In this document: positions 52,555 through 55,439 of the stretch, piece after piece
Numbering within the stretch: position 1 is the first letter of the stretch
Layout of the letters: the number at the start of each line of letters is the position of its first letter
DNA from: Gammaproteobacteria bacterium
GTDB taxonomy: Bacteria > Pseudomonadota > Gammaproteobacteria > Pseudomonadales > Pseudohongiellaceae
Assembly: GCA_008081045.1 (NCBI GenBank)
Contig: VMDC01000016.1
Coordinates: 1-64,000 of the forward strand
Length of the DNA: 64,000 bases
Direction of reading: 5' to 3'
Notes under the pieces: generated by a model
What the model was told of the DNA's origin: nothing
The model's input: the letters and a program-made list of their open reading frames with translations, nothing else
Database searches by the model: none
Position numbers and translations under genes: made by a program

Positions 52555-52938
52555 TTACAGTGCCAGAATTGCCTCCACCTCAACCTGGGCGCCTTTCGGA
52601 AGCGCTGACACCTCAATGGTGGCTCGGGCTGGAAAAGGCAGCGAGAAGTATTTCGACATAATGTCATTCACCACAGCGAAATCGTCCAGGCTGGTGAGGA
52701 ATATAGTGAGCTTTACAGCAGCATCCAGCGAGCTTCCAGCGGCCTCTGCTAACGCGGACAAATTGAGAAACACCTGGTGGGCCTGTTCACCGACATCGTC
52801 AGAGACGATTTCCATCGTGATCGGATCGAGCGGGATCTGTCCAGAACAGAACAGCAGAGAGCCTGTCCTTATCGCCTGTGAGTATGGCCCAATGGCTGCG
52901 GGCGCGTTTGGCGTGTTTATTTCCTGTTTGTCGCTCAT
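52555..52938 (-). CDS. ridA: Reactive intermediate/imine deaminase RidA
   Basis: RidA hydrolyses reactive enamines and imines, such as 2-aminoacrylate, that form during PLP enzyme turnover. The 127-residue trimeric-fold protein shows the conserved GPYSQAIRTGSLLFCSGQIPLDP and the catalytic Arg in ARATIEVSALPKGAQVEVE (motifs shown in part). Its ATG overlaps the spoT stop by four bases, so it is translated with spoT. Confidence 0.96.
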   Translation of the reverse strand: MSDKQEINTPNAPAAIGPYSQAIRTGSLLFCSGQIPLDPITMEIVSDDVGEQAHQVFLNLSALAEAAGSSLDAAVKLTIFLTSLDDFAVVNDIMSKYFSLPFPARATIEVSALPKGAQVEVEAILAL

Positions 52939-55124
52939 GTGTGGCTCAATGCTCCAATCGGGTTTTTAATGGTTTTACGTACCCTTCGGCTTTTCACCCG
53001 ACTCACACTGGAGACCGGCAACAGAGCGCGGACACGCTTCATGACCCTGGCTAAGTGCACCCGGTTTTTCACATTGATGGAAAGGTTCACAATGCTGAGT
53101 CGGGCGTCTCGCTCCACCGTACTGATTTTTTCAATATTGGCTTCCGCGCCGGTGATGGTAGTCGCCAGGGTTGCGATGATGCCTCGCTGATTTTCCAGTT
53201 CCACGCGGAGCTCGACGGAAAACTCCCCCTCGACCTCCGGGTCCCAACTGACCTCGAGGCATTTTTCCTGATTGTCCCTGACATCGGCGATATTGTTGCA
53301 GTCATCGGTATGTATCACCATTCCCCGACCGGAGCTTATATGGCCGACAATGGGGTCGCCCGGTATCGGGTGGCAGCACTTGGCGAAATTCATCACCATC
53401 CCTTCAGAGCCACGAATGGCCAGAGCACCGGCTTCTTTGCCGGTTCGCTCCGATTCCTGTCGGCTGCGTTCAGCACTGGTGGCCAGGCGCTGAGCGATCA
53501 TGTAAGACATGCGATTGCCTAGCCCGATGTCTTCCAACAGGTCATCCACAGACTGCAGGTTTGTTTGCAACAGGACGGCATCGATTTGGCTTTGGGGCAC
53601 TTCATCCAGCTGCGCGCCAAACGAGGCCAGGGCTTTGTTGAGCAGGCGGCGCCCCAGGGCAATGGATTCAGAGTGTTTCTGATTCTTGAGATAGTGTCGT
53701 ATGTTGCTGCGCGCTTTACCGGTTTTGACAAAACTGAGCCAGGCCGGATTTGGCTGGGTGCCCGGAGCGGTAATAATTTCAACGGTCTGGCCGCTTTGCA
53801 GTGGCTCGCTCAGAGGGGCAAGGCGGCGGCTGATGCGACAGGCCACACAGGCATTACCGACATCTGTGTGGACGGCATAGGCAAAGTCTACGGCAGTGGA
53901 GCCTGCCGGCAGTTCAAAGATGCTGCCCTTGGGTGTGAATACATAGATTTCGTCTGGAAACAGGTCAATTTTGACGTGCTCGATGAATTCCAGCGAATTA
54001 CCCGCGTGCTTCTGCATCTCCAGTAATCCGCTGACCCACTCTCTTGCTCTGAGATGGGCATTGGCGGGCAGATCGTCGCTGGATTTGTAAAGCCAGTGAG
54101 AAGCAATGCCGTTGTTCGCCATCGCCTCCATTTCTTCAGTACGTATCTGAATTTCGATCGGCACGCCATGCATGCCGAACAGCGTGGTGTGCAGCGACTG
54201 ATAGCCGTTCGCTTTGGGGATGGCGATGTAGTCCTTGAATCGGCCGGGGACCGGTTTATACAGATTGTGAACGGCACCCAGCACGCGATAACAGGTGTCT
54301 ACCGAGTCAACAATGATGCGAAAGGCATAGACATCCATGATGTCAGAGAAAGATTTCCGTTTGATCCGCATCTTTTCATAGATACTGTAGAGATGTTTTT
54401 CCCGACCGATCGTCCGGCCCGGGAGGCCTTCGCGTTCCAGGCAGGCTTCCAGTGATGTCTGAATCTGCGACACGATTTCCTTGCGGTTGCCGCGTATATG
54501 CCTGACTGCAGCATCAATACGCTGTGCTCTCATGGGATAGAGTGCAGCAAAGCCGAGATCCTCGAACTCGATTCTCACATTGTTCATCCCCAGACGGTTG
54601 GCGATGGGGGCGTAGATGTCCAGAGTTTCGCGGGCGATGCGCCGTCGCTTGTCCGGCGTCAGCACTTCGAGTGTGCGCATGTTGTGGAGGCGGTCAGCGA
54701 TCTTGACCAGAATTACGCGCAAATCTTTGGCCATTGCCATGGCCATTTTCTGAAAGTTCTCAGCCTGCGCTTCAGCGCGGCTGCTGAAAGTGATTTTATT
54801 GAGCTTACTGACACCATCTACCAGATCGGCCACGGTATTCCCGAACTGGTTCTTTATCGCGGTCTTGGTGATGCCGGTGTCTTCGATCACATCATGCAGC
54901 ATGGCAGCCATCAGCGACTGATGGTCCATGTGCATCTCGACCAGTATGCCGGCGACCGCCAGCGGATGGGTCACATAAGGTTCGCCGCTTCGGCGGAACT
55001 GCCCTTCATGAGCTTGCTCGGCGTAGTAGTACGCTCGTCGGACGCTGTTGACCTGGTCGACCTGCAGATAGTTAGACAGATCGCCGGCCAGAGAGTCGAT
55101 GCTTTCAGAAACTGGGGCTTGTAT
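52935..55124 (-). CDS. spoT: Bifunctional (p)ppGpp synthetase/hydrolase SpoT, apparent ATA start
   Basis: SpoT makes and degrades (p)ppGpp. Domains in order: HD hydrolase (about 1-195), RelA/SpoT synthetase (with ANGYQSLHTTLFG near 295), TGS, helical and C-terminal ACT domains. The first ATG/GTG/TTG is GTG at 54974, but this starts inside the hydrolase domain and removes its first 50 residues. The frame remains open upstream to the rpoZ stop and encodes clear SpoT sequence (SVRRAYYYAEQAHEGQ, RRSGEPYVTH). An ATA at 55124, with AGGAG seven bases before it, gives 729 residues and places Arg44, His53, His77-Asp78 and Glu81-Asp82 at the numbers used for the Streptococcus Rel hydrolase site. A non-standard AUA start is the simplest reading; a sequence error is the alternative. 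Confidence 0.9.
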   Translation of the reverse strand: MQAPVSESIDSLAGDLSNYLQVDQVNSVRRAYYYAEQAHEGQFRRSGEPYVTHPLAVAGILVEMHMDHQSLMAAMLHDVIEDTGITKTAIKNQFGNTVADLVDGVSKLNKITFSSRAEAQAENFQKMAMAMAKDLRVILVKIADRLHNMRTLEVLTPDKRRRIARETLDIYAPIANRLGMNNVRIEFEDLGFAALYPMRAQRIDAAVRHIRGNRKEIVSQIQTSLEACLEREGLPGRTIGREKHLYSIYEKMRIKRKSFSDIMDVYAFRIIVDSVDTCYRVLGAVHNLYKPVPGRFKDYIAIPKANGYQSLHTTLFGMHGVPIEIQIRTEEMEAMANNGIASHWLYKSSDDLPANAHLRAREWVSGLLEMQKHAGNSLEFIEHVKIDLFPDEIYVFTPKGSIFELPAGSTAVDFAYAVHTDVGNACVACRISRRLAPLSEPLQSGQTVEIITAPGTQPNPAWLSFVKTGKARSNIRHYLKNQKHSESIALGRRLLNKALASFGAQLDEVPQSQIDAVLLQTNLQSVDDLLEDIGLGNRMSYMIAQRLATSAERSRQESERTGKEAGALAIRGSEGMVMNFAKCCHPIPGDPIVGHISSGRGMVIHTDDCNNIADVRDNQEKCLEVSWDPEVEGEFSVELRVELENQRGIIATLATTITGAEANIEKISTVERDARLSIVNLSINVKNRVHLARVMKRVRALLPVSSVSRVKSRRVRKTIKNPIGALSHT

Positions 55125-55151
55125 GTCTCGACTCCTGTGGCGGAAGGGGGG

Positions 55152-55439
55152 CTAGACTTCGGTGGTAGGCGTGTCGTCCTGCTGTTCGGCGACGGCTTCG
55201 GCCATTTCCTCTTCGACTTCTTCCAGCTCGACACTGGGCTTTTCGATCAGTATTTCATTCGTCACCAGACCGTCGGCAATTTCGCGCAGCGCCACCACGG
55301 TAGGCTTGTCGTTGTCCACTGAGACCATGGGGTCTTTGCCTTCTATCTGAATCTGCCGAGCACGTTTGCTTGATACCATAACGAGTTCAAAGCGATTGTC
55401 GACCTTGTCCAGACAATCTTCTACCGTAATTCGTGCCAT
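55152..55439 (-). CDS. rpoZ: RNA polymerase subunit omega
   Basis: Omega promotes assembly of beta' into RNA polymerase and contributes to ppGpp binding. The 95-residue protein begins [20 protein letters not shown] and contains [10 protein letters not shown] and [13 protein letters not shown], the family hallmarks, followed by an acidic tail. It lies 27 bases upstream of the apparent spoT start, linking a ppGpp target and its synthetase in one operon. Confidence 0.98.

Follow-up and report, generated by a model that had tools for sequence, protein, structure and literature searches.

A probable inherited AUA start codon on spoT in a gammaproteobacterial clade

Natural AUA starts and weakly initiated stress genes

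The closest described parallels to the gene considered here come from Staphylococcus aureus, for which excerpts of one study list AUA as the start codon of ccpN, infC and citZ, report that the non-canonical start of ccpN is conserved as far as Bacillus subtilis, and give reporter yields from AUA of approximately 10% of those from AUG, and as much as 30% in rich medium in the case of ccpN (PMC13009471). As in ccpN and infC, which are likewise regulatory genes, the spoT gene that we describe combines a putative natural AUA start with a good Shine-Dalgarno (SD) sequence, an arrangement associated with reduced yield in S. aureus, and, as in ccpN, the non-canonical start is conserved between species. 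However, according to the same excerpts, the S. aureus genes are those of a Firmicute, ccpN encodes a repressor, and the SD motifs are extended, whereas spoT here has a plain AGGAG.

The same gene is weakly initiated in Escherichia coli K-12, where spoT starts with TTG, and an excerpted source places it in the polyamine modulon on account of its inefficient start codon (PMC7177335). The likeness to our locus thus lies in the gene itself, the order gmk-rpoZ-spoT and an inefficient start, and the difference in the codon, UUG being a standard weak start and AUA not. Near-cognate starts occur elsewhere in E. coli, where pcnB begins with AUU and where expression of both infC and pcnB is low and IF3-sensitive, although the codon is AUU rather than AUA and infC is self-regulating. 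The ATT start of E. coli infC is given in the available part of a study of Streptomyces sigR, a stress regulator with a GTC start that is repressed by IF3 (PMC5472188). This non-canonical start is likewise conserved across a genus, but codon and gene are different, and IF3 dependence has been examined experimentally for sigR, whereas the spoT start discussed here is known from sequence.

Engineered or sporadic changes from ATG to ATA also lower the level of stress regulators. In excerpted reports, this change in rsbW of Listeria monocytogenes gave less GFP than ATG (PMC13068326), and in rpoS of E. coli O104:H4 it reduced RpoS by up to 5-fold, the latter report also citing an E. coli reporter study in which ATA reached up to 1% (PMC12864459). 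Here lies the resemblance to the spoT switch, yet these ATA codons are those of laboratory mutants or rare strains, whereas that of spoT is fixed across species. A survey of 61,358 ancestral AUG starts records 363 switches to GUG, 113 to UUG, 2 to CUG and 1 to AUU, and its excerpted text names no switch from AUG to AUA (PMC5622118). Consequently, as far as those excerpts go, a fixed AUG to AUA switch would be unusual, although annotation without an AUA option would hide such cases. Among the matches listed from the open-licence literature, we found no report of an AUA start on spoT. Natural AUA starts and a weak start on spoT are therefore already known, and an inherited AUA on spoT is an addition to them.

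The spoT locus and its initiation signals

The window (the whole stretch of 64,000 nucleotides that was analysed) derives from a genome of 2.75 Mb in 62 contigs, 96% complete, whose near relatives are recorded as OM182 bacterium, as uncultured Pseudohongiella or, for others, simply as Gammaproteobacteria or Pseudomonadales. The minus-strand gene rpoZ (55152-55439; Pfam PF01192) runs from an ATG start to a TAG stop at 55154-55152 and lies directly 5' of spoT, the same position as in E. coli. An open frame of 738 codons (55151-52935) begins directly after this stop, in a frame identical to that of rpoZ. Its earliest ATG, GTG or TTG is a GTG at 54974-54972, which lies past conserved hydrolase sequence. 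Seven nucleotides separate an AGGAG at 55136-55132 from an ATA at 55124-55122; counted from this ATA, the coding sequence (52935-55124, minus strand) comprises 729 codons and a stop, and the GTG is codon 51.

The product is SpoT, a bifunctional RelA/SpoT homologue, as indicated by its HD, synthetase, TGS and ACT domains (Pfam HD_4 at residues 31-180, RelA_SpoT, TGS, RelA_AH_RIS and ACT_4) and by its score of 1010 bits against the NCBIfam equivalog NF008303 (cut-off 947). Its score of 455.8 against the GTP diphosphokinase model NF008124, which we take to represent RelA, falls below the cut-off of 728.

Several observations indicate that the ATA at 55124 is, very probably, the start codon of spoT. 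It aligns with the starts of 73 same-genus genomes, is ATA in six, and scores best for SD pairing among the in-frame near-cognate codons scanned. The AGGAG is kept at equal distance in all six ATA genomes, and the predicted duplex energy at ATA ranges across them from -6.9 to -8.6 kcal/mol, calculated with a standard anti-SD sequence, which was assumed because none of the nine genomes searched yielded the 16S 3' end. By comparison, an in-frame scan of the same six genomes, from 15 codons before ATA through codon 51, gave energies of -4.5 or weaker for other near-cognate codons, with the exception of an ATA at codon 4 of one genome (G067; -5.9). Moreover, over all pairs of the six genes pN/pS is 0.114 for codons 2-50, 0.025 for codons 52-101 and 0.054 for codons 102-729, pointing to purifying selection on codons 2-50, which consequently look translated.

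The preliminary description of this DNA had noted most of the local arrangement correctly: the frame does lack a standard start between the rpoZ stop and the GTG, the sequence before that GTG is indeed conserved SpoT sequence (as judged from the pN/pS of codons 2-50 and the extent of HD_4), the ATA does follow AGGAG by seven bases, and initiation at the GTG would indeed remove Arg44. It had further claimed that counting from ATA places the hydrolase residues at the numbers known for a streptococcal Rel, and a hand count on the translation gives R, H, H, D, E and D at residues 44, 53, 77, 78, 81 and 82. Chain 6yxa aligns with the window SpoT without gaps in that region, residue 17 to residue 17, and chain 1vj7 likewise begins 17 to 17 in the tabulated match positions, both chains presumably being Rel proteins numbered as in that description. 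The matching numbers do not prove the start independently, since relatives with canonical starts begin approximately 46-55 codons before the conserved T-H-P motif and are numbered differently. However, the match is more than chance, given that this codon falls where relatives start and that six species have ATA there.

Start codons across the genus and beyond

Among 84 same-genus genomes, a spoT match was present in 80 (in G008 as a C-terminal piece only) and absent from four; the 5' end was present in 79, all of which were read. Starts were called as the farthest canonical codon lying 45-58 codons before T-H-P or, failing that, as the aligned ATA. The resulting column contains TTG in 57 genomes, ATG in 11, GTG in five and ATA in six; 73 of the 79 have a canonical codon within the specified interval, and those without one are the ATA six only. 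These six (G000, the genome of the window, with G005, G069, G064, G067 and G010) are separate species assemblies, three titled as MAGs and the remaining ones multi-contig, and differences among their spoT genes reach 0.54 at fourfold sites.

In a SpoT protein tree of 52 sequences (48 of the 79 genomes and four Pseudomonas; first ten codons omitted; built by a quick method, with SH-aLRT support in place of bootstrap), the six ATA rows form one clade with a support of 100. Their sister group comprises three genomes (G022, G002 and G100), all with ATG, and the nine together receive 98; the branch next to these has TTG, with 96 for the ten. The simplest path on this tree, and the likely one, leads from TTG through ATG to ATA, so that the ATA was probably derived from ATG. 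The preliminary description, which proposed the ATA start, had regarded an ATG in relatives as speaking against it: ATG is indeed the codon of the sister clade, but six species, that of the window included, have ATA in common, which supports the proposed start and argues for an inherited switch as opposed to a reading error. In one ATG sister (G022, L004), TGGCG stands approximately 10 nt before the ATG where others have AGGAG, as if that motif had become less necessary once a strong start codon was in place. Separately, one 75% complete genome (G001) carries two spoT copies, on C57 and C21 (L017 and L190), which share 84% and 82% identity with the query and may reflect mixed strains.

A second feature of the genus concerns the alarmone synthetases themselves. 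The synthetase domain PF04607 was found in 79 of the 84 genomes and as a single match in 77 of these, including the genome of the window, the exceptions being G001 with its two spoT copies and G099 with an additional small synthetase. In 20 of 21 genomes from other families of the order, a second, RelA-like match is present, partial in one. RelA therefore appears to be missing throughout the genus; E. coli, by comparison, also has RelA. Since no RelA/SpoT-type synthetase other than SpoT was found in the genome of the window, a weak spoT start would limit alarmone synthesis as well as hydrolysis. The additional synthetase of G099, on C10, is a small alarmone synthetase encoded by a frame of 236 amino acids. 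Short hydrolase-like matches, which we take to be MESH1-type, occur in six genomes (G022 C63, G024 C1, G100 C57, G007 C191, G070 C60 and G010 C174).

Weak spoT starts extend well beyond the ATA clade. Within the genus, 68 of 79 genomes have a non-ATG start on spoT, whereas rpoZ has ATG in all 75 loci located by script; a ridA-like gene next to spoT has ATG in 45 of 47, canonical codons alone being considered. We further compiled a set of 80 gammaproteobacterial genomes from outside the genus, each representing a different family code (the best 60 of 109 matching genomes, together with 20 of the 21 from other families of the order, with G050 left out for its broken spoT frame), in which starts were picked by distance to T-H-P, so that single rows may be wrong. 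In this set spoT starts with ATG in 28, TTG in 28 and GTG in 22, the remaining two having a canonical codon only farther upstream, and none of the 80 lacks a canonical start; 50 of the 78 assigned genomes are thus non-ATG (L198-L277), while rpoZ has ATG in 22 of the 23 controls seen. Similarly, 30 Pseudomonas spoT loci divide into ATG 14, TTG 12 and GTG 4.

Overall, the explanation that we favour, with high confidence, is translation of spoT from AUA with the help of its SD sequence and at low yield. Mechanistically, fMet-tRNA (anticodon CAU) would pair with the A and U of AUA and mispair at the third base, and the AGGAG 7 nt upstream may compensate by keeping the 30S complex in place for long enough. 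Ribosomes ending rpoZ 27 nt away could perhaps also aid initiation at ATA. If AUA is the start, its yield is likely to be low, and SpoT, the only long alarmone enzyme found, would then be made in small amounts.

Whether such a start carries regulatory meaning is less certain, and the most serious alternative, to which we give even chances, is that the AUA is a tolerated down-mutation fixed by drift. Under neutrality, third-position A would be kept in all six lineages about half of the time: among the A/G-synonymous columns, 85 have A in the majority of the six genes, and at 42 of these A occurs in all six. As this neutral expectation is too high, we do not count ATA retention as evidence of selection. 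Furthermore, the other initiation signals appear ordinary. Against drift stands the generality of weak spoT starts described above, and the pattern of non-ATG spoT beside ATG rpoZ suggests, though it does not prove, that weak initiation is advantageous. A condition-dependent regulatory role of the AUA start, by which SpoT levels would change with IF3, polyamines or growth or, as the preliminary description suggested, alarmone hydrolysis would be coupled to the state of initiation, is a tentative proposal, which we think possible but less likely than not. Doubtful as a whole is a more elaborate scenario in which weak spoT starts are selected in gammaproteobacteria as dose control of alarmone enzymes and in which one clade of this RelA-less genus, after an ATG stage, was set to AUA. 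SpoT would then be governed by initiation fidelity (IF3, polyamines, initiator tRNA and the action of ppGpp on IF2), giving a loop between initiation and the alarmone. TTG, ATG and ATA at one aligned codon within one genus offer a natural series in which to examine whether start strength tunes a stress enzyme, and a gene caller limited to ATG, GTG and TTG would trim 50 residues from SpoT, including part of the hydrolase domain.

Alternative readings of the spoT 5' end and the initiation machinery

Among the readings that dispense with an AUA start at 55124, the best survivor, itself improbable, is initiation at another nearby near-cognate codon, for example the ATC at codon 9, the CTG at codon 12 or, in G067, the ATA at codon 4. 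Such codons do exist, and Pseudomonas SpoT begins approximately five codons later. However, codons 9 and 12 lack a well-spaced SD sequence (energies of +0.2 to -3.3) and correspond to body residues in relatives that start upstream, while codon 4 of G067 has an energy of -5.9 against -8.6 at codon 1. A start farther upstream encounters different difficulties. In G067 an in-frame TAG lies five codons 5' of ATA, leaving no room for one. In G064 the spoT frame extends into rpoZ and offers a GTG and a TTG 37 and 36 codons 5' of ATA, whereas in the five other ATA genomes no canonical codon precedes codon 51. Counting on the sequences themselves, we find 27 nt between the rpoZ stop and ATA in G000, G005 and G069, 28 in G064 and 26 in G067 and G010; given these differences and the TAG of G067, neither an upstream start nor a fusion with rpoZ can serve the whole clade.

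Still less probable is translation from the GTG at 54974, which would yield a SpoT without its first 50 residues. This GTG is the first canonical codon of the frame, and all six ATA genomes have GTG here, as opposed to GTT or GTC in the three ATG sisters. Yet its duplex energy is only -2.1 in the window and -2.1 to -3.0 over the six, codons 2-50 evolve as coding sequence, and a start there would fall within HD_4 and remove Arg44. Moreover, only 28 of 161 loci read (some genomes counted twice) have GTG at this position, and we regard it as an internal valine codon shared by descent within the clade.

A sequencing or assembly error concealing an ATG can be dismissed with near certainty: ATA is one base from the ATG of the sister clade and one of the six ATA assemblies has a title coverage of approximately 3, but ATA occurs in every one of six species assemblies, and a single shared reading error is not credible for genes differing at up to 54% of fourfold sites. 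Equally remote is readthrough of the rpoZ amber stop into an omega-SpoT fusion with no start of its own, for although rpoZ and spoT share one frame in the window, joined by a single TAG, three of the six ATA genomes (G064, G067 and G010) have them in different frames, on which ground we reject it, and G067 carries an additional TAG in the spoT frame.

We also considered whether initiation has been loosened throughout the clade, which is not supported: IF3 and the initiator tRNA appear ordinary in the genomes that were compared or yielded them, and no second gene of this kind was found among those screened. A scripted screen covered the 46 genes of the window that have homologues in contigs of the ATG sisters, and flagged 11 for which no canonical start lay at or upstream of the aligned region. 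For spoT, 54 codons of conserved frame lie ahead of the first canonical codon, compared with 5-29 in the other ten. Four of these, with the larger overhangs, each proved to have a conserved ATG when their DNA was read, and six, with overhangs of 5-9 codons, were judged from the overhangs alone to be alignment spill, so that among the 46 genes no other was found without a canonical start. Among 11 IF3 sequences, three of them from ATA genomes, no change specific to the ATA clade was detected at otherwise invariant columns. Of nine genomes searched, four (three ATA genomes and one sister, but not the window's own genome) yielded a tRNA-Met of initiator type with anticodon CAT.

Two further candidates were set aside. 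ATG spoT genes have a weaker SD sequence than others (Mann-Whitney p 0.048), but the effect is weak and the rows are related, and compensation between SD strength and start codon was dropped as an argument. Autoregulation of infC through AUU was also abandoned for the genus, in which 34 infC matches occur in 33 genomes: of 30 loci read (L112-L140), 28 have an in-frame ATG at the N-terminus, one lacks it and one was misplaced by the script, and consequently the classical AUU start of infC is not evident. In many of these infC loci, a GAGGAA-like motif is followed, ahead of the ATG, by a GCG-TTC-GCG-like stretch.
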